Source: Flavobacterium sp. KJJ | GTDB lineage: Bacteria > Bacteroidota > Bacteroidia > Flavobacteriales > Flavobacteriaceae | Reading direction: 5' to 3' | Assembly (NCBI RefSeq): GCF_000708595.2 | Contig: NZ_JARP01000001.1 | Coordinates: 1,178,001 to 1,242,000, forward strand | Length of the DNA stretch: 64,000 bases | Shown here: positions 4,079-36,797 of the stretch, piece after piece | How positions within the stretch are numbered: position 1 is the first letter of the stretch | How the letters are laid out: every line of letters starts with the position of its first letter | Notes under the pieces: model-generated | Seen by the model: only the letters and a program-made list of their open reading frames with translations | Told to the model about the DNA's origin: nothing | The model's database searches: none | Position numbers and translations under genes: made by a program

Positions 4079-4097
4079 GTTTTAGACAGTAATCTAA

Positions 4098-4679
4098 TTA
4101 ACTTTTTATCCAGTTGATAACTTCTGGTTCTGTAACTAACGTTTTTGGCTTAATAACTTTAACCAATTCGCCTTTTTCGTTGATTAAGTATTTTTGAAAA
4201 TTCCACTCTACTTCAGAATCTTGCAAACCGTTTTTAGATTTTTGAGTTAAGAATTTATAAACATCAGCCATGTCATCACCTTTGACAGAAATCTTGTCCA
4301 TCATTGGAAAAGTTACCCCATAATTTTGTTGACAAAATGTCTGAATTTCCGCGTTTGTTCCCGGTTCTTGAGATGCAAAGTTGTTAGCAGGAAACCCTAC
4401 AATTACGAAACCTTTGTCTTTATATTCTTTGTAAACTGCTTCAAGATCTTTGTATTGTGGTGTTAACCCACATTTTGATGCTGTGTTTACAATTAGAATT
4501 TTCTTTCCCTTTAAAGAAGCAAAATCAAAAGTATTTCCTGATAAATCTTCAACCTTAAATTGATAAATGGTTTCTTTTGCCATGACTTCTGTTTTAGGTT
4601 TATTTGTTGTTTTTTGAGCTTGAACTTGCGAAGCCATCATAAATAATGCACTGCAAACTAAGAATACTATATTTTTCAT
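4098..4679 (-). CDS. secreted glutathione peroxidase family protein (thiol peroxidase type)
   Basis: A 193-residue exported peroxidase. The N-terminus MKNIVFLVCSALFMMASQVQA is a signal peptide ending AQ|A-Q, so the enzyme should work in the periplasm. The glutathione peroxidase fold starts near residue 36. The peroxidatic residue is Cys70 (NTASKCGLTPQ), not selenocysteine; FPANNF follows near 97 and a candidate resolving Cys116 lies in EIQTFCQQNYGV, the arrangement of thioredoxin-dependent members. The catalytic Trp/Asn motif VEWNFQKYL is near residue 168. It probably reduces hydroperoxides with thioredoxin-like donors rather than glutathione; that donor is inference. It stands alone on the minus strand. 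An AAAACGTTTT palindrome lies upstream. Confidence 0.9.
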   Translation of the reverse strand: MKNIVFLVCSALFMMASQVQAQKTTNKPKTEVMAKETIYQFKVEDLSGNTFDFASLKGKKILIVNTASKCGLTPQYKDLEAVYKEYKDKGFVIVGFPANNFASQEPGTNAEIQTFCQQNYGVTFPMMDKISVKGDDMADVYKFLTQKSKNGLQDSEVEWNFQKYLINEKGELVKVIKPKTLVTEPEVINWIKS

Positions 4680-4713
4680 TTTTTAATTTTTTATAAAATT
4701 AGTTAAAATCTAT

Positions 4714-4729
4714 TTTACGAAAACGTTTT
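4714..4729. promoter_or_regulatory. candidate operator containing AAAACGTTTT
   Basis: TTTACGAAAACGTTTT lies 35-50 bases upstream of the glutathione peroxidase start. A nearly identical 16-mer (one base different, TTAACG...) lies upstream of the GH31 gene at 57458-57473 in the same orientation relative to its gene. The core AAAACGTTTT is a perfect palindrome. The binding protein is unknown. Confidence 0.35.
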
Positions 4730-4768
4730 GAATGTTTTATTTTTCATTAAACATACGTTAAAAAAAAT

Positions 4769-4799
4769 GAAGCCTAAGGTTAATCAGACCTTAGGCTTC
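4769..4799 (-). terminator. intrinsic terminator of a minus-strand transcript
   Basis: A perfect 12-base stem (4769-4780 with 4788-4799) with a 7-base loop. On the minus strand the stem is followed by an A and then eight T, so it ends transcription coming from the 5.2 kb side, where no large gene exists. Confidence 0.75.
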
Positions 4800-5053
4800 C
4801 CCCCATACAAACAAATCAAACCATGAATTAATCTTATGCGTATTATCGCTTTATATTTTAAATTTATAGCTGGTGCCTCTCGGTTATAGTGAAAATTAAT
4901 TTTAAAACCCTAATTCGTAATTCCCTATTTTATTTAATTTCAATGGCGTTTATAATGGAAAATTTTCTCTGTCTTTTAATCTGGGAATTCCTGTTTTTAA
5001 ATTAAATTTCGGTTTGGAAGTCCGAGGACACCAACTATTAAACTATTTTCTTT
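4800..5053. other. non-coding stretch between terminator and small ORF
   Basis: No ORF of convincing length in any frame. Together with the 41-codon ORF at 5054-5179 and the terminator at 4769-4799 it would form the 3' half of a roughly 400-base minus-strand transcript. The minus strand contains short protein-like phrases in shifting frames, which could be a decayed gene, but I cannot assign them. Confidence 0.35.
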
Positions 5054-5179
5054 TTAAAATTTATTGCCAAAAGCTGTTTTAATTATTTCTTTTTGCAACT
5101 CGCTTCCGTTAAAATTCGTTAGTGCTAAAATGCTGGTCAAACCAACAATCAATATTTTTAACTTATTTATACTGACCAT
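5054..5179 (-). CDS. candidate 41-residue secreted or membrane peptide
   Basis: A minus-strand ORF from ATG 5179 to TAA encodes MVSINKLKILIVGLTSILAL followed by 21 polar residues. The basic start and hydrophobic residues 9-20 look like a signal peptide or a single membrane anchor. I do not recognise the family. Support is indirect: the ORF sits in an 850-base gap, reads toward an isolated perfect terminator at 4769-4799 that no other gene accounts for, and is on the strand that the terminator serves. No clear ribosome site or exact promoter consensus is visible. It could instead be the leader of a regulatory RNA. Confidence 0.35.
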   Translation of the reverse strand: MVSINKLKILIVGLTSILALTNFNGSELQKEIIKTAFGNKF

Positions 5180-5531
5180 CACGCTAATTTTATTTACTGA
5201 GATTATATTTACATTTTTTGTTCTTAAAAACGTTAAATTTTAAAGAGAATTCTATCATTTCAATTCTTTAAATAACTGCATCTCGATATCCTTTAAAGTT
5301 TTTCTGCTATTTTAATAGATATTCATTTCATGTTATAATAGCATTTACGTAACTGGATTGCTTTTGGTTTTAAAAAATTGAAAAAAAAGTGATTTTTTTT
5401 TTGAATCCCTTATTTTACTAGGTTTTTGGTTGTTAAAAAAAAATAAATTTTTACAAAAAAATAAAGTAACTTTATCTCAGGTAATAAAATAATGTTTAAT
5501 AATTTTAGTTTAAACTTTAAAATCCAAATCT
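5180..5531. other. upstream region of ECF sigma gene, no gene seen
   Basis: Very AT-rich. It contains a run of ten T near 5393-5402 and nine A near 5440. TAACTTTA, one base off the -7 consensus, occurs about 65 bases before the sigma gene start. I see no further coding potential. Confidence 0.4.
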
Positions 5532-6062
5532 ATGAGTCAAGAAGAATTGTTAGTTTTAATTTACAAAAAAGACGAAAGAGCTTTTACCCATTTGTATGAT
5601 ATGTATGCGAAAAGTCTATTTTCCGTAATTAATGTACTAGTTAAAAATCGCGAAGAAGCAGAAGATGTTTTGCAGGAAGTTTTTGTCAAAATATGGAAAA
5701 ATATCGATTCTTATAATGAAAGCAAAGGACGATTTTACACCTGGATCCTTAATATTGCTCGAAATACGTCGATTGATAAGTTAAGATCTAAAAATTTTAA
5801 TAACAGCCAAAAAAACCTTTCCTCAGATAATTTCGTAAATCTGTTAGATGACAGTAATAAACTCATCAATAGAATTGATACAATTGGAATACAAGAATTT
5901 GTAAAAAAATTAAAACCAAAATGTATTGAGATCATTGATTTATTATTTTTCAAAGGATATACCCAACAAGAAGCTTCAGAAGAATTGGCATTGCCATTGG
6001 GAACTATCAAGACACAAAACAGAAACTGTATTAACGATTTACGTAATTATTTAAAAATATAA
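5532..6062 (+). CDS. ECF sigma-70 family RNA polymerase sigma factor (SigK-like)
   Basis: A 176-residue ECF sigma factor with only regions 2 and 4. Region 2 spans about residues 15-80 (FTHLYDMYAKSLFSVI, EEAEDVLQEVFVKIWKNI, the DVLQEVFVKIW core-binding helix being typical). Region 4 spans about 120-172 (IEIIDLLFFKGYTQQEASEE, then LGTIKTQNRNCINDLR), a -35 binding helix-turn-helix. The stop codon shares one base with the next gene's ATG (TAATG), so the pair is translationally coupled. The partner is an RskA-type anti-sigma factor, so the sigma factor is probably held at the membrane until a signal releases it. Its targets are not visible here; self-regulation is likely but unproven. Confidence 0.9.
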   Translation: MSQEELLVLIYKKDERAFTHLYDMYAKSLFSVINVLVKNREEAEDVLQEVFVKIWKNIDSYNESKGRFYTWILNIARNTSIDKLRSKNFNNSQKNLSSDNFVNLLDDSNKLINRIDTIGIQEFVKKLKPKCIEIIDLLFFKGYTQQEASEELALPLGTIKTQNRNCINDLRNYLKI

Positions 6063-6850
6063 TGGAAGCACAAGAGTATATAGAATCAGGAATTCTAGAA
6101 CTATATGTTTACGGTTTACTAACCGAAACTGAAAATCTAGAAATAGCAGAATTAGCGAAAAAAAATCCCGAAGTTGATCAGGAAATAATTGCGATAGAAA
6201 AAGCTATTGTGGCTTTATCATCAAGCTTCTCTCCTTTCCACTCGGTAGCTAATTTTGAAAAGATAAAAGCCCGTCTAGAACTGAAACATGGCAAAGTAGT
6301 CGATATGAAACCAACATCAAACTGGTCTCAATATGTCGGTTGGGCTGCTGCTGTATTATTGCTTCTAGGATTTGGGTACCAAACTTTAGAATTGACCAAA
6401 ACAAAGGAGGCTATTGCTACAGTTGGCAATGAGAAAACTAAAATTGAGAGAGATTATGCCTACTTAGGACAGCAAAATAAAGAAATCGAGAAAAGTTTAA
6501 CAATTGTAAGAGACATTAAAAACACTGGTGTAACGCTTGGCGGTCAAGCTGTTTCGCCGACGTCTTTTGCAAAAGTATATTGGAACAAGGACACAAAAAC
6601 GACTTATATAGATGCCGCTGGTTTGCCAAAGCCTCCAAAAGGAATGGTTTATCAAGTTTGGGCTTTAAAATTAAGTCCAGTACTTACGCCAACAAGTATT
6701 GGTTTATTAAGCGATTTTGAAGGAAATCCTCAAAAAATATTCGCAGTAGACCGTACAAACGAAGCAGAAGCTTTTGGTATTACACTAGAACCTGCTGGCG
6801 GAAGTTTAACTCCGACAATGACACAGTTATATACTTTAGGAAAAGTTTAA
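6062..6850 (+). CDS. membrane anti-sigma factor, RskA type
   Basis: A 262-residue single-pass protein that should bind and restrain the sigma factor encoded one base upstream. Residues 1-75 form the cytoplasmic sigma-binding part (MEAQEYIESGILELYVYGLL, then ENLEIAELAKKNPEV). The membrane helix is about 91-107 (YVGWAAAVLLLLGFGYQ). Residues 110-150 are a charged coiled coil, and 155-262 match the extracytoplasmic RskA C-terminal domain (KVYWNKDTKTTYIDAAGLP, MVYQVWAL, GITLEPAGG). No CxxC or His zinc motif is seen in the N-terminus. The signal sensed is unknown. In the related mycobacterial system release follows proteolysis. Confidence 0.88.
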   Translation: MEAQEYIESGILELYVYGLLTETENLEIAELAKKNPEVDQEIIAIEKAIVALSSSFSPFHSVANFEKIKARLELKHGKVVDMKPTSNWSQYVGWAAAVLLLLGFGYQTLELTKTKEAIATVGNEKTKIERDYAYLGQQNKEIEKSLTIVRDIKNTGVTLGGQAVSPTSFAKVYWNKDTKTTYIDAAGLPKPPKGMVYQVWALKLSPVLTPTSIGLLSDFEGNPQKIFAVDRTNEAEAFGITLEPAGGSLTPTMTQLYTLGKV

Positions 6851-6872
6851 AAGAAAATTTGTCATAAATTCT

Positions 6873-6908
6873 AAACGCGTATTAATTAATTTTAATATGC
6901 GTTTTTTT
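6873..6908 (+). terminator. intrinsic terminator after anti-sigma gene
   Basis: A 12-base stem with one G-T wobble (6873-6884 with 6893-6904) followed by a T-run to 6908. Confidence 0.7.
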
Positions 6909-6943
6909 ATTATTTTTAGCACAGCCAAAAACCAAAATTAATC

Positions 6944-7333
6944 ATGAATAGAACTTTACTTTTAAGAATTGCTGTTGCTATTATATTACTTACGCATTCT
7001 ATTTTTGGAATGTTCGACAACGGAATTAATGATTTCGGAAATCTATTTCTGAATCAAATTGGCTTTGCTCCTTTTGGAGTATTCCTGGCTTGGTCAATAA
7101 AATTATCGCATGTTGCTGCCGCAATACTTTTAATTTCAAATAAATACATTAAGCTTGCTGGATTTGTAACCATTTTTGTTTTATTGATGGGTATTGTTTT
7201 GGTTCATTTTAAAGAAGGCTGGTTTGTAGTGGGCGGTGGCAGAAATGGTGTTGAATATAATTTTTTGCTAATAGTTGTCTTATTGGCAATTATGTATCCT
7301 GATGGTTTCAAAAAAGAAAATAAAGTTTTATAA
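6944..7333 (+). CDS. small four-helix membrane protein, DoxX-like
   Basis: 129 residues with four hydrophobic segments (about 5-22, 40-62, 66-88 and 103-120) and short loops, the DoxX/SURF4-like layout. The N-terminal LLLRIAVAIILLTHSIFGMF and the late GRNGVEYNFLLIVVLLAIMY, with a glycine-rich loop before the last helix, agree with that family, whose role is loosely tied to redox or lipid metabolism and is not settled. It starts about 35 bases after the terminator of the sigma operon and is followed after 16 bases by the DUF3667 gene, so the two may share a transcript. Confidence 0.65.
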   Translation: MNRTLLLRIAVAIILLTHSIFGMFDNGINDFGNLFLNQIGFAPFGVFLAWSIKLSHVAAAILLISNKYIKLAGFVTIFVLLMGIVLVHFKEGWFVVGGGRNGVEYNFLLIVVLLAIMYPDGFKKENKVL

Positions 7334-32431: not shown

Positions 32432-32524
32432 ATTTTTAATTTCATATAAACAATTCAATTTCAATTTATTAGATTAAATTTGAAAGGCTTTATTATGCGT
32501 TTATTTTAAATCAAACTTAAAAAA

Positions 32525-32569
32525 TAGTTAAATAACTACTTTTGTAGTTGTGTAACTATAAAAATAGTT
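32525..32569. promoter_or_regulatory. BlaI operator cluster and -7 element
   Basis: Three perfect dyads overlap here: TAGTTA-AA-TAACTA (32525-32538), AACTAC-N4-GTAGTT (32534-32549) and AACTAT-N4-ATAGTT (32554-32569). The last two are centred 20 bases apart, two DNA turns. The first contains the -7 element TACTTTTG (32537-32544). BlaI dimers bound here would block transcription of the whole blaIR run. No such dyad precedes the second blaI copy. Confidence 0.75.
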
Positions 32570-32595
32570 GTAAGTTTGATTTAAAATTAGAACAC

Positions 32596-32964
32596 ATGCA
32601 AAAGTTAACCAACAAAGAAGAAGAAATCATGCATATTTTATGGAAGCTTAAAAAAGCATTCGTAAAAGAAGTACAGGCAGAAATCACAGAAGATCAGCCT
32701 CATTATAACACACTTTCGACTATTGTTCGTAATCTTGAGGAGAAAGGTTTTGTAGCGCACAATGCTTTTGGAAATACACACCAATATTATCCAATTATAA
32801 CTTTAGAAGCGTACAGCAAAAAGTATATGAAAACGGCTATTGATAATTATTTCAACAGTTCTTATAAAAATATGGTTTCGTTTTTTGCCAAAGAAGAAAA
32901 AATCTCTGCCGCAGAATTACGCGAAATTTTAGCCATGATCGAAACTCCAAAAGAAGAAAAATAG
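32596..32964 (+). CDS. BlaI/MecI/CopY family repressor, copy 1
   Basis: A 122-residue winged-helix repressor. The ATG at 32596 (MQKLTNKEEEIMHILWKLKK) is chosen, since a 16-residue extension would overlap the operator. The DNA-binding half is residues 5-72 (AEITEDQPHYNTLSTIVRNL then EEKGFVAHNAFGNTHQYYP). The dimer half follows (TAIDNYFNSSYKNMVSFFAK). In classic systems BlaI/MecI is cleaved at an Asn-Phe bond after the partner M56 protease senses a signal. It precedes the M56 gene by 6 bases and is 90% or so alike to the second copy at 34612, so the pair arose by tandem duplication. Confidence 0.92.
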   Translation: MQKLTNKEEEIMHILWKLKKAFVKEVQAEITEDQPHYNTLSTIVRNLEEKGFVAHNAFGNTHQYYPIITLEAYSKKYMKTAIDNYFNSSYKNMVSFFAKEEKISAAELREILAMIETPKEEK

Positions 32965-32970
32965 TTGTTT

Positions 32971-34575
32971 ATGGAAGCACTTTTCACTTATATCGCAAAA
33001 TCAGCTGGATTAATTATATTGTTTTATTTTGCCTATTATTTTTTGTTGCGCAAAGAAACTTTTTTTAATAGTAATCGATGGTTTTTATTAGCTGGATTAA
33101 TAACATCTTTAACGCTTCCCTTCTTGGTTTATACTAAAACTGTCTGGGTTGATCCTACTCCAATTTCAAACTTAAATTATTTATCGTACAGCCAACAAGT
33201 TGAAAAAGATACTTTTGAAATTAATTGGAATTTAGTTTTACTTACCATTTACGGACTTGGCGTTTTAGCTTTAGTAGTGAAATTTGCTTTCGACTTTTAC
33301 AGCTTAAATTCTGTTTTAAAAGGAAAAAAAATACAGCAGCAGGCAGACTTTAAATTTGTTGATGTTAATGAAAACATCGCACCTTTTTCTTATTTTGAAT
33401 ATATCGTTTACAACTCATCAATGTTTACGGAATCAGAATTAGAAAATATTATTGAGCATGAAAAAGTGCACAGCGATCAAAATCACACTATCGATGTTTT
33501 AATTTCGAGAGGCTTTTGTATTCTCTTTTGGTTCAATCCTGTAATGTGGTTTTATAAAAAAGCAATTGTTCAAAATCTTGAATTTATTGCTGACAAAGAA
33601 GTTGCACAAAAAATATCAGATAAAAAAGCCTATCAATACACGCTTTTAAAAATTACAACTCATGAAAGTTGTCTATCAATCACTAATCATTTTTATCAAT
33701 CATTAATCAAAAAACGAATCGTTATGTTAAACAAAAATCAATCAAAAAAGAGAAATTCTTGGAAGTATTATGTAGTAATTCCAGCACTTGCCGCTTTTGT
33801 GCTTTTATTTCAAATTGAAGTAATTGCTAAAGAAAAAAGAGAAATTTTAAAGGAAATTAAAGGTGAAAAAGAATCTGTTGATGTTTATAAAATCAGCAAA
33901 ACAACTACAGATCAGCAATTAAAAGAAATGGCTGAAAAAATGAAGCTAAATCACAATGTTGATGCCAAGATCACGGATGTTGAAAGAAATTCTAACAATG
34001 AATTAATCGCCATTAGATTTGATTTAACAAGAGGTTCTGAGCAATCGCAATCGTATCGCGTTAAAGGGAGCAAAGCAATCAAGGATTGTGAAATTGTTAT
34101 TGAAACTGAAAGTGACGGTTCTAAGAAAATAGGCTTAAAGACTGAGGATAAAGAAAATGAAGTAAAAGCCATCGATAAAGAACGTAAAGTTGAAGTAAAA
34201 AAAGTTCAAAATTCTAAAATTGCAAGTGATGTTAAAACTACTAATAATACTTATACAAGCATTAGCACAAGCACTAGTACAAATACTAACGATACTAATG
34301 TAAACGGAAAAGCTAATACAAATACTTCTGTTAGCGTAAACGTAAACAGTAATGCTAAAACGCCTACAGTGGTTCACGTATCTACAGATGGTAAAAATAC
34401 AAGTACGCATTTGACACAACTAGTTGTCATCGATGGAGTGATTTCAAATATTACAAATACTAAAGATCTTGAAAATTTGAAGATTGGATCTGTTAATGTA
34501 CTGACTGGCGACAATGCAACAGGCAAATATGGAGACCAAGGTAAAAATGGTGTCCTTGAAATTGAAACTAAATAA
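32971..34575 (+). CDS. BlaR1-like M56 family membrane metallopeptidase, copy 1, TonB-plug-like tail
   Basis: A 534-residue membrane protease sensor; ATG 32971 mirrors the start of copy 2. Helices lie at about 5-24, 36-54, 86-108, 178-196 and 266-284. The zinc site is H163-E-x-x-H167 (IEHEKVHSDQ) with a third ligand in EFIAD near 204-208. After the last helix comes a small periplasmic domain (about 305-395), a low-complexity Asn/Thr/Ser stretch (about 420-467) and an ending that mimics the TonB receptor plug (about 485-534, VNVLTGDNATGKYGDQGKNG), which is a habit of Bacteroidetes M56 proteins. It would relay an envelope signal by cleaving the BlaI repressor. No beta-lactamase is nearby. Confidence 0.88.
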   Translation: MEALFTYIAKSAGLIILFYFAYYFLLRKETFFNSNRWFLLAGLITSLTLPFLVYTKTVWVDPTPISNLNYLSYSQQVEKDTFEINWNLVLLTIYGLGVLALVVKFAFDFYSLNSVLKGKKIQQQADFKFVDVNENIAPFSYFEYIVYNSSMFTESELENIIEHEKVHSDQNHTIDVLISRGFCILFWFNPVMWFYKKAIVQNLEFIADKEVAQKISDKKAYQYTLLKITTHESCLSITNHFYQSLIKKRIVMLNKNQSKKRNSWKYYVVIPALAAFVLLFQIEVIAKEKREILKEIKGEKESVDVYKISKTTTDQQLKEMAEKMKLNHNVDAKITDVERNSNNELIAIRFDLTRGSEQSQSYRVKGSKAIKDCEIVIETESDGSKKIGLKTEDKENEVKAIDKERKVEVKKVQNSKIASDVKTTNNTYTSISTSTSTNTNDTNVNGKANTNTSVSVNVNSNAKTPTVVHVSTDGKNTSTHLTQLVVIDGVISNITNTKDLENLKIGSVNVLTGDNATGKYGDQGKNGVLEIETK

Positions 34576-34611
34576 TATTTATTTCAATTTCTTTAAAAAA
34601 AAACAATTACC

Positions 34612-34980
34612 ATGCACAAACTAACCAATAAAGAAGAAGAAATAATGCATATTTTATGGAAGCTCAAAAAAGCTTTTGTAAAAGAAATTCAGGCAGAAAT
34701 CACCGAAGATCAGCCGCATTATAATACGCTTTCGACTATTGTTCGCAATCTCGAAGATAAAGGATATGTAAGTCATAATGCCTTTGGAAATACGCATCAA
34801 TATTATCCAATTATAAGTATTGAAGATTACAGCAAAGGCTTTATGAGTACTGCAATTGATAATTATTTCAACAGTTCTTATAAAAGTATGGTTTCATTTT
34901 TTGCCAAAGAGGAAAAAATTTCTGCGGCAGAATTACGCGAAATCTTAGCTATGATTGAAACTCCGAAAGAAGATAAATAA
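34612..34980 (+). CDS. BlaI/MecI/CopY family repressor, copy 2
   Basis: 122 residues, nearly the same as copy 1 with conservative changes; for example the wing reads EDKGYVSHNAFGNTHQYYP and the dimer helix TAIDNYFNSSYKSMVSFFAK. Identical length and the same end (AMIETPKEDK versus EEK) show a gapless tandem copy. Since the DNA-binding helix is almost unchanged, it should recognise the same AACTA-type dyads, so the two repressors may form mixed dimers. It starts 36 bases after the first M56 gene and 6 bases before the second; no own operator is seen. Confidence 0.92.
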   Translation: MHKLTNKEEEIMHILWKLKKAFVKEIQAEITEDQPHYNTLSTIVRNLEDKGYVSHNAFGNTHQYYPIISIEDYSKGFMSTAIDNYFNSSYKSMVSFFAKEEKISAAELREILAMIETPKEDK

Positions 34981-34986
34981 TCGTTT

Positions 34987-36741
34987 ATGGAAGCACTTTT
35001 CATTTTTATTGCAAAATCAAGTGGACTATTAGTATTGTTCTACTTTGCTTATTATTTTTTATTGCGCAAAGAAACTTTCTTTAACAGTAATAGATGGTTT
35101 TTATTGGCAGGTTTAGTAACCTCAGTCGCTTTGCCTTTTTTAGTTTATACTAAAATTGTCTGGGTCGATCCTACTCCACTGCCTGTAATGAATTATTCTC
35201 AAGTTTATTATCCTCAAACTGTTCAAGAAGAAACATTCGAAATCAACTGGAATTATGTTGCGCTTGCTATATACATAATTGGCTTTATTGCTCTAATAAT
35301 AAAATTTGCAGCAGATTTTTATAGTTTGAATTCGGTTTTAAAAGGCAAAAAAGTAGAACAGCAAGCTGATTTTAAATTTGTCGATGTAAATGAAAATATC
35401 GCTCCGTTTTCTTATTTTGATTATATCGTATACAACTCATCAATGTATACGGCATCAGAATTAGAAAATATTATTGAGCACGAAAAAGTACACAGCGATC
35501 AGCATCATACTGTAGATGTATTGATTTCTAGAATATTTTGTGTGTTGTTTTGGTTCAATCCAATAATTTGGCTTTACAAAAAAGCAATTCTTCAAAATCT
35601 TGAATTTATCGCTGATAGTGAAGCTGCAAAAAAAATATCAGACAAAAAAGCGTACCAATACACGCTTTTAAAAATTACAACACATGAAAGTTGTGTTGCA
35701 ATCACCAATCATTTTTATCAATCATTAATCAAAAAACGAATTGTCATGTTAAACAAAAATCAATCAAAAAAAAGTAATTACTTGAAGTATTATGCAATAC
35801 TTCCTGCCCTTGTAGCCTTTGTGTTTTTATTTCAAATTAAAACTATTGCACAAGAGAAAAAAGAAGCTCACGAAGTTTCTGAAAAAATATCTTCTACAGA
35901 TGTATACAAAATCAAAAAAAATACAACAGATGAAGAATTAAAAACAATGTCTGAAAAACTGAAAAAAAATCATGATGTTGATGTCGCTTTTTCTAATGTA
36001 AAAAGAAATGCTGAAAAAGAATTAACTGCTATTACAGTAGAAGTTACAAAAGGAACAGAAGAAATTCAAACCATTCAAATTGAAGGTGATAAAGCGATTA
36101 AAAGCTGTGGAATTGTTATTACAACAGAAGATAACGGCTCTAAAAAAATTGACGTAGTTACAGATGGCGGTATTGATAAGCCAATGACAATCAGAAATCG
36201 CGTTGTAGAAATTAAAGAAACAGATAGTGATGGTGCTTCAATTGCAGATATAGCGCCTCCAGCTCCTCCTGTTCCGCCAGTTTCGCCTGTTGTTCCTCCT
36301 GCTCCTGTTGCACCTGCATTTCCTGCAGGAATGGTGCCTCCAGTTCCTCCTCTTGATATGTCGAAAATGCCTAAAGCGCCAAGTGTTCCAGCAAATGTGA
36401 ACGATAAGGCTGCTATGAAAAATTTCGAAAAAGAAATGGCTGAATTTGAAAAAAAGATGGAAGCCTTTCAACCAGATTTATCTGCTTACGAAAAACAAGT
36501 AGCAGAAGCAATGTCGAAAAGAGGCGCTAATTATGAAAAAGAAATGGCAAAATACGAAATTGCAATGGAAAAATTTAGCGCAGATATGGAAAAATACAGC
36601 GCTTCTATGGAACAATCATTCGGAAAAGATTTTGAAGAAAAAATGAAAAAATTTGAAAAGGAAATGAAAGTTTACGAGAAAACCATGAAAGAAAATGAAA
36701 AGGACATGAAGAAATGGGAAAAAGAAAGTAAAAAATCTTAA
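34987..36741 (+). CDS. BlaR1-like M56 family membrane metallopeptidase, copy 2, with proline hinge and coiled coil
   Basis: 584 residues. The first 395 residues align with copy 1: same five helices and a zinc site H165-E-x-x-H169 (IEHEKVHSDQ). The tail is different. Residues about 420-460 form a Pro/Ala/Val hinge (units such as PPAPPVPPVSP), and residues about 475-584 form a charged helix with Met and aromatic residues repeating every seven positions (KEMAKYEIAMEKFSADMEKY and similar). There is no TonB-plug-like ending. This suggests a long rod in the periplasm, perhaps reaching cell wall or outer membrane. The ligand is unknown. It ends the four-gene run and is followed by a terminator. Confidence 0.87.
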   Translation: MEALFIFIAKSSGLLVLFYFAYYFLLRKETFFNSNRWFLLAGLVTSVALPFLVYTKIVWVDPTPLPVMNYSQVYYPQTVQEETFEINWNYVALAIYIIGFIALIIKFAADFYSLNSVLKGKKVEQQADFKFVDVNENIAPFSYFDYIVYNSSMYTASELENIIEHEKVHSDQHHTVDVLISRIFCVLFWFNPIIWLYKKAILQNLEFIADSEAAKKISDKKAYQYTLLKITTHESCVAITNHFYQSLIKKRIVMLNKNQSKKSNYLKYYAILPALVAFVFLFQIKTIAQEKKEAHEVSEKISSTDVYKIKKNTTDEELKTMSEKLKKNHDVDVAFSNVKRNAEKELTAITVEVTKGTEEIQTIQIEGDKAIKSCGIVITTEDNGSKKIDVVTDGGIDKPMTIRNRVVEIKETDSDGASIADIAPPAPPVPPVSPVVPPAPVAPAFPAGMVPPVPPLDMSKMPKAPSVPANVNDKAAMKNFEKEMAEFEKKMEAFQPDLSAYEKQVAEAMSKRGANYEKEMAKYEIAMEKFSADMEKYSASMEQSFGKDFEEKMKKFEKEMKVYEKTMKENEKDMKKWEKESKKS

Positions 36742-36765
36742 TCAAATTATTCAGTTTCAAGAAAA

Positions 36766-36797
36766 AAAGACTTTGCCCAACCGCAAAGTCTTTTTTT
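36766..36797 (+). terminator. terminator of the blaIR run
   Basis: An 11-base perfect stem (36766-36776 with 36783-36793), 6-base loop, T-run to 36797. Confidence 0.82.

Follow-up and report, generated by a model that had tools for sequence, protein, structure and literature searches.

To our knowledge, systems that pair a BlaI-family repressor with a membrane protease of the M56 family have been studied mainly in beta-lactam resistance, as in the bla and mec systems (BlaI-BlaR1 and MecI-MecR1) of Staphylococcus aureus and Bacillus licheniformis. Here we describe a four-gene operon of the same general construction, a tandem of two blaI-M56 pairs, which lies in a window of 64,000 nucleotides from Flavobacterium sp. 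KJJ (contig NZ_JARP01000001.1, positions 1,178,001 to 1,242,000 of the forward strand; "the window" denotes this whole stretch, and its coordinates are counted from its first letter). According to excerpts of two papers on the BlaI-BlaR1 mechanism, an activated M56 protease cuts BlaI, which frees the promoter (PMC7593790, PMC3305447); excerpts of the latter also describe three BlaI operators in B. licheniformis, and report that staphylococcal MecI and BlaI can replace each other, unlike the receptors BlaR1 and MecR1.

Although the tandem has the construction of a bla or mec system, and a conserved stretch of its BlaI proteins can be aligned to the N101-F102 cleavage region, it does not belong to these systems: tests found neither a penicillin-binding sensor nor an adjoining resistance gene. 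Unlike bla and mec, the operon carries two sensors and a contiguous array of AACTA-N6-TAGTT dyads phased at 20 bp, a motif from which we take the bla/mec dyad to differ. We propose, with a rough probability of 0.55, that the tandem acts as an envelope-sensing OR switch, in which one autoregulated operon would join two non-beta-lactam sensors to one repressor pool. BlaI dimers made from either or both copies would occupy the three phased dyads at the promoter, holding all four genes low; the two proteases, whose tails differ, would each sense a different state of the envelope; and either one, once active, would cut BlaI within the same conserved stretch, so that either signal could derepress the operon. 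After the duplication, recombination between the copies would have held the repressors close to each other, whereas the difference between the sensor tails persisted. That cleavage of BlaI by M56 would free the promoter is assumed by analogy with BlaI-BlaR1.

The genome that holds the window (4.6 Mb) carries the tandem at 32596-36741, in the order blaI-1, M56-1, blaI-2, M56-2, with gaps of 6 bp within either blaI-M56 pair and 36 bp separating the pairs. The operon and its control region consist of the following features.

32514-32529, no strand: operator dyad 1, AACTT-N6-TAGTT, with one mismatch
32534-32549, no strand: operator dyad 2, AACTAC-N4-GTAGTT, 20 bp after dyad 1
32554-32569, no strand: operator dyad 3, AACTAT-N4-ATAGTT, 20 bp after dyad 2
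32571-32578, forward strand: TAnnTTTG -7 promoter box, TAAGTTTG, directly behind dyad 3
32596-32964, forward strand: blaI-1, BlaI/MecI-type repressor of 122 amino acids (aa), PF03965
32971-34575, forward strand: M56-1, BlaR1-type metallopeptidase of 534 aa, PF05569, with HEKVH at residues 163-167 and E204; its periplasmic core domain is followed by a Ser/Thr/Asn-rich linker and a tail with a SusC/RagA plug signature (residues 505-534)
34612-34980, forward strand: blaI-2, repressor of 122 aa, PF03965, 89% identical to blaI-1
34987-36741, forward strand: M56-2, BlaR1-type metallopeptidase of 584 aa, PF05569, with HEKVH at residues 165-169 and E206; after a similar core domain come a Pro-rich stretch and a predicted long helix (474-583), and there is no plug signature
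36762-36797, forward strand: intrinsic terminator ending the operon

These coordinates, together with the Pfam assignments of both repressors (PF03965, E 9.4e-30 and 3.7e-30, covering profile positions 1-114 of 115) and both peptidases (PF05569, E 2e-14 and 6.2e-14, above the cut-off), confirm the tandem blaI-M56 pairs with equal 6-base spacing that an earlier inspection of the letters alone (hereafter the sequence-only reading) had described.

The operon has a single control region. A TTG at 32548-32550, 20 bp upstream of the -7 box, could serve as the -33 element. The box itself matches the flavobacterial -7 consensus, TAnnTTTG, as given in excerpts of PMC9723704; from the placement of that consensus at -12 to -5 in the same paper, transcription is predicted to begin near 32583. 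To determine how general this arrangement is, we compared 115 distinct regions upstream of a first or only blaI, pooled from two locus sets that share some genomes, and called an array wherever three dyads spaced 20 bp apart each had at least 8 of 10 matches. The array is present in 113 of the 115 regions, and a TAnnTTTG box behind a dyad likewise in 113 of 115; when the array is restricted to the last 120 bp upstream, the 20-bp period is found in 107 of the 115, and no other dyad period between 16 and 24 bp yields any array. Three loci depart from this pattern: L088 lacks the first blaI, L105 has only two dyads, and L090 has no box. At a broader scale, 141 of 199 Flavobacterium genomes contain a strict 20-bp double dyad, as opposed to 0 of 199 for the reversed control. 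None of 61 distinct regions upstream of a second blaI has an array, and single 8/10 dyads appear there in 11 of 61 regions, against 8.5 expected from shuffles; in the window, the forward strand contains no TAnnTTTG anywhere in 34022-35372, and thus none shortly upstream of blaI-2. A second promoter before blaI-2 was rejected on these grounds. The sequence-only reading had seen an operator and promoter before the first pair only, which these comparisons bear out; the operator it described as two dyads in fact has three at a 20-bp period, and its motif, AACTAY-N4-RTAGTT, proves too narrow for an array whose dyad is AACTA-N6-TAGTT.

Aligned at both the nucleotide and the protein level, the two pairs turn out to be very unequally conserved along their length. 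The repressors are indeed closely similar, as had been noticed, with 109 of 122 residues identical (89%; 86% at the nucleotide level), and match the PDB entries 1sd6, 1okr and 1sd4. In the residues aligned to staphylococcal N101-F102, here F96-F97, the Phe after the bond is retained and the Asn before it is replaced. The surrounding stretch, residues 93-102, is identical within all 59 of 59 distinct repressor pairs, and residues 37-50 are identical within 55 of the 59, the pair in the window differing by E49D. Between M56-1 and M56-2, four of the first six 50-column blocks are 82-88% identical in amino acid sequence and two are 62-65% identical; the next two blocks fall to 54% and 42%, and beyond about column 400 the tails have no recognisable likeness. 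The HEXXH residues and the downstream Glu (H163, E164, H167 and E204 in M56-1; H165, E166, H169 and E206 in M56-2) are invariant in our alignments A3 and A2, respectively, and the M56 domain aligns with the BlaR1 structures 8exs and 8exp.

What the proteases lack is a recognisable antibiotic sensor. Pfam finds no penicillin-binding (class D-like) sensor domain in either M56 protein of the window or in 44 position-1 sensor fragments, nor any known ligand-binding domain in the window sensors, and the NCBIfam model blaR1_generic scores 33-34 bits on the window proteins, against a cut-off of 400. A test for the divergent gene arrangement of bla and mec found no beta-lactamase or penicillin-binding protein gene in the operon or adjoining it, in agreement with the sequence-only reading, which had noted the absence of a beta-lactamase. 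In predicted models, both M56 proteins share a core domain of strand-helix-strands after the last membrane helix. The model of the M56-1 sensor has a mean predicted local distance difference test score (pLDDT) of 65, although the ten-residue blocks within fragment residues 11-100 reach 76-93; a fold search with it returned nothing at E ≤0.001, and a SusC chain in fourth place (E 0.44) is not counted as evidence. For M56-2, the model of the whole protein is of low quality (mean pLDDT 56, predicted template modelling score 0.23), and only its long helix was used.

The two positions are distinguished most clearly by their tails. TIGR04057, the SusC/RagA signature, is matched by 41 of 44 position-1 proteins at E ≤0.05 (best 1e-20) and by 0 of 44 position-2 proteins, which supports, at the level of the tails, the diverged inputs suspected from the sequence; M56-1 of the window itself scores 21.6 bits (E 1.4e-4), under the cut-off of 46.2. 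The Plug family PF07715 is found in 19 of 44 position-1 sensor fragments at E ≤0.1, the window fragment falling below that level. In its tail M56-1 probably resembles TonB-dependent receptors of the SusC/RagA type, but unlike them it carries the plug-like module at the end of a membrane protease and has no outer-membrane beta-barrel, the protein terminating with the plug signature (505-534 of 534). Position-2 proteins have instead a Pro-rich stretch followed by a helix predicted to span about 110 residues (474-583). M56 proteins fused to plug or TonB_C domains appear in domain databases. When the tails were classified with models built from the tandem tails themselves (a partly circular procedure, with rows drawn from two overlapping sets that hold 61 distinct proteins per position class), two-M56 loci were plug-only at position 1 in 70 of 70 rows and helix-only at position 2 in 69 of 70, the remaining one being neither; where a locus has three M56 pieces (seven loci), the final one was of the helix type in 7 of 7. 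Single-copy M56 proteins (57 rows, 49 distinct) comprise 23 helix-only, 12 plug-only, 16 both and 6 neither, where four of the six in the last class are at most 403 aa long; proteins of the "both" class match the plug model weakly, their best unit being incomplete and scoring about 10-21 bits. Of the 23 M56 rows taken from more distant Flavobacterium loci, the plug model is matched by 14, the helix model by 3 and the two together by 0.

Judged by sequence divergence, the duplication is old and common to many flavobacteria. Synonymous divergence (dS) between the copies is 0.74 (NG86) or 1.02 (YN00) for blaI, and 0.77 (NG86) or 1.33 (YN00) for the first 300 M56 columns; nonsynonymous divergence (dN) is far below dS in blaI and in the N-terminal part of M56, indicating purifying selection on both pairs. 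Third positions of blaI agree within one locus at a mean of 0.66, as compared with 0.64 across loci for copy 1, 0.66 for copy 2, and 0.62 for copy 1 against copy 2. The intact tandem is found in 40 of 73 named loci and is shared among many Flavobacterium species, including Flavobacterium johnsoniae, a genetically tractable species (strain CI04); two blaI genes together with two M56 genes of more than 450 aa occur in 26 of 61 loci, one of which (L059) has its first blaI shortened to 111 aa. Among the named loci, the best relatives of blaI-1 are mostly from Flavobacterium, with few exceptions (e.g., [Flexibacter] sp. ATCC 35103 and two Flavobacteriaceae records), and outside Flavobacterium no second blaI copy above 60% identity was found among the matches listed (to about E 5e-29) for 149 family genomes of 148 genera. 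On M56 trees of 87 rows, built from residues 1-262 and from residues 263-392, a single change splits position 1 from position 2 when only those are labelled, and a tree over residues 1-392 (81 rows, six long-branch or odd rows having been removed) likewise requires one change. As the M56 copies sort by position on these trees, separate origins for the two pairs were rejected. The tandem most likely arose once, before the radiation of a clade of large-genome flavobacteria.

Since that event, the parts of the tandem have evolved unevenly. We compared 56 tandem loci (near-copies having been removed from 64) with 5000 random cross-pairings; under pure divergence after one duplication, a locus's own copy 2 should be no closer to its copy 1 than another genome's copy 2 is. 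For blaI, identity is 0.861 within a locus and 0.832 between loci, a value that 0 of 5000 pairings reach, and the own pair ranks in the top tenth in 21 of 56 loci. The HEXXH domain is weakly homogenised (0.840 vs 0.833, again reached by 0 of 5000), as are M56 residues 1-60 (12 of 5000), and there is no clear within-locus excess for M56 residues 61-150 (760 of 5000) or for the sensor, residues 263-390 (562 of 5000). Homogenisation is thus graded, from the repressor through a weak effect in the protease domain to no clear effect in the sensor; shared base composition is unlikely to be its sole cause, because the sensor comes from the same genomes.

Repressors and sensors also vary in number independently of each other. 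The arrangement blaI-M56-M56 is found in L075, L120 and L134, and M56-blaI-M56 in L088; in F. bizetiae (L145), three M56 genes accompany two blaI genes. In a set of 20 more distant Flavobacterium loci (19 genomes), G024 has one blaI with three M56 genes, G129 one blaI with two, and 18 have one of each; G024 and G129 were included because a second M56 had already been seen there, so that 2 of 20 is not a rate. The numbers of repressors and sensors are therefore not tied one to one. Two loci have further peculiarities: at L088:1404-2538 (genome G178) a 344-aa protein with a CarboxypepD_reg domain follows the operator array in place of blaI-1, and at L055:6019-6678 (genome G015) the two pairs are separated by an additional 219-aa piece, an M56 end with a plug tail, which resembles a tandem duplicate of part of the sensor.

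Possible target genes were sought through the dyads. The single dyad AACTAY-N4-RTAGTT, suggested for such a search in the sequence-only reading, is not enriched in this genome (6 sites vs 5 for the reversed control), nor is AACTA-N6-TAGTT (11 sites vs 23), and a regulon search by single dyads accordingly failed. Eight single-dyad sites lie outside blaI promoters, of which seven fall inside open reading frames of 324-888 aa and the eighth, C2:395028, is spanned by no ATG-started frame. The full array occurs in this genome at two blaI-M56 operons only, the present one and one at C1:933.6 kb; with three mismatches allowed, the double dyad has four matches, all at these two operons and with at most 2 mismatches each, whereas the reversed control of that search gives 3 matches. 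In other species, we picked, among the sites listed and those of 23 genomes added to the list, 28 double-dyad regions that had no obvious adjoining blaI or came from genomes with more than one site; 22 adjoin a blaI and 6 do not. Two genomes have a double dyad before a PF00144 hydrolase (L224:2526, L270:2337), the L270 protein scoring far under the NCBIfam beta-lactamase cut-offs, and four sites in three genomes lie near GLPGLI-family genes (L225:2967, L265:2261, L266:2223, L267:2421). The sites in L265, L266 and L267 sit between divergent genes, so that the target could be the gene on either side; the distance from the start of the site to the GLPGLI start exceeds 200 bp in L265 and L266. By the position of these sites, the PF00144 hydrolase and GLPGLI genes are possible flavobacterial BlaI targets elsewhere.

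How, then, might the two pairs work together? The two-input logic advanced in the sequence-only reading is consistent with the homogenised repressors, with a cleavage stretch identical in 59 of 59 pairs and with the relatives in which one repressor accompanies several M56 proteins, and it keeps its conditional place in our proposal; from the near-identical repressors, the shared array and the unequal gene numbers, we infer a common pool on which either M56 could suffice. Were each M56 to act only on its own BlaI instead, the two pairs would have a transcript in common yet signal separately, and derepression would require the removal of both repressors (AND logic). The conserved order of the pairs, the mostly short gaps within them and the purifying selection on both would suit such insulation, and one intact repressor could be enough to hold the single array; near-identical repressors with the same cleavage stretch do not, and one-to-one insulation is impossible where M56 genes outnumber BlaI genes, so we consider this arrangement unlikely. 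We rate as highly improbable the young, still diverging duplication envisaged in the sequence-only reading, for although the repressors and HEXXH halves are highly identical and the nearest row to M56-1 over residues 1-262 is its own M56-2 (81%; M56-2 itself is nearer to the L078 second copy, 88%), silent sites are heavily diverged (dS 0.74-1.3, with third positions at between-species level), many species have the same tandem and tail order, and M56 trees are sorted by position.

A somewhat better case, though one we still hold only tentatively, can be made for sub-functionalisation, in which an ancestral M56 combined plug-like units with the helix and the two copies retained one of these apiece. 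It draws on the 16 of 57 single-copy M56 rows that match both models while the tandem copies match one each; it is weakened by how slight and incomplete those plug matches are (about 10-21 bits, from models built on tandem copies) and by the 23 distant rows, with 14 plug, 3 helix and none of both. This history is compatible with the OR switch and would agree with it rather than oppose it. The last alternative is a self-limiting operon that does not signal through repressor cleavage: the M56 proteins would act on other envelope or membrane substrates, with BlaI limiting their dose. The confinement of the array to two blaI-M56 operons in this genome, even with three mismatches, and the lack of any known ligand-binding domain in the window sensors by Pfam are what one would expect from it, but the full conservation of the BlaI cleavage stretch between copies and the arrays near GLPGLI-family and PF00144 hydrolase genes in other species are not, and we think it improbable.

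Several observations count against the OR switch, or against the history that we attach to it. No separate target gene of the array was found in this genome. The M56-1 frame is fragmented in L110, L112 and L113 while M56-2 is intact (L069 and L071 being taken as the same genomes as L110 and L112), so that the plug sensor can be lost. Because recombination and conversion favour tracts that are already conserved, homogenised repressors need not mean selection for a common pool. On the phylogenetic side, when single-copy rows are given a third label, position 1 needs 3 changes and position 2 needs 7, more than before because single-copy rows of the tandem clade fall among the position-2 rows; in the sensor tree, the position-1 rows of L059 and L088 group with distant single-copy rows; and the BlaI tree, on which 13 of 85 inner branches are starred, has poor support, mixes the positions and needs 8 changes. 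Finally, within-locus identity of the window copies lies at percentile 0.83-0.93 in all regions, the sensor included, and forcing M56-1 and M56-2 of the window together costs a log-likelihood difference of 59, with a borderline approximately unbiased (AU) test (p 0.049). The window's own copies are probably partly re-homogenised, and their place among the more homogenised loci is the reason why a duplication confined to the window is rejected only at the borderline.

The tandem thus represents a widespread Flavobacterium form of the BlaI-M56 system that has no antibiotic sensor and combines two sensor types, in fixed order, with one phased array. Such a tandem is a natural setting in which to test how circuits of a protease and a repressor acquire inputs, and it points to a possible envelope-sensing pathway in Bacteroidota, where, if the OR logic is true, one genetic switch may answer two envelope signals. 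The plug-like tail, the long helix and the TonB_C tail of a related M56 protein (see below) suggest that the outer membrane or TonB-dependent transporters are what is sensed. A more far-reaching version, which we regard as a long shot, is that M56 proteases with plug modules or TonB_C domains, and possibly with a periplasm-spanning helix, would be gauges of the assembly or energisation of outer-membrane transporters, wired to a repressor pool kept uniform by recombination and forming a multi-input OR switch tripped by any envelope fault. In the openly licensed literature, we recognised no paper on this tandem, on fusions of M56 to plug or TonB_C domains, or on such an envelope-sensing pathway in Bacteroidota. 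Excerpts of PMC5294843 report a BlaI-family gene up-regulated in a Riemerella mutant with altered lipopolysaccharide, and excerpts of PMC10470040 report BlaI and M56 genes with hemin-dependent methylation in Porphyromonas gingivalis, the BlaI gene also changing in expression; in neither case is orthology to the tandem shown. The mutated-loci table and other available passages of PMC10197871 do not name BlaI or M56.

The operon's neighbours, by Pfam, are a major facilitator superfamily (MFS) transporter gene upstream and an EamA transporter gene downstream of the terminator. By tblastn, the MFS gene lies upstream of the operon in 58 of 61 loci examined and was not found in the other three (L072, L086 and L106).

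The same genome holds two further BlaI-M56 operons, both single pairs, unlike the tandem. The one in L011 (C2:604000-614000, at 4082-5673 of that region) has no AACTA-N6-TAGTT-type dyad upstream, and its M56 protein ends in TonB_C (PF03544, E 3.3e-9). That at C1:933.6 kb, in L010 (C1:929000-940000, with blaI at 4568-4930 and M56 at 4927-6951), is closer to the tandem in its control region, having a three-dyad array with a 20-bp period (-81/-61/-41), and the tail of its M56 protein is repeat-rich by eye. The open reading frames downstream of this operon resemble, also by eye, an extracytoplasmic function (ECF) sigma factor and a FecR-type anti-sigma factor.

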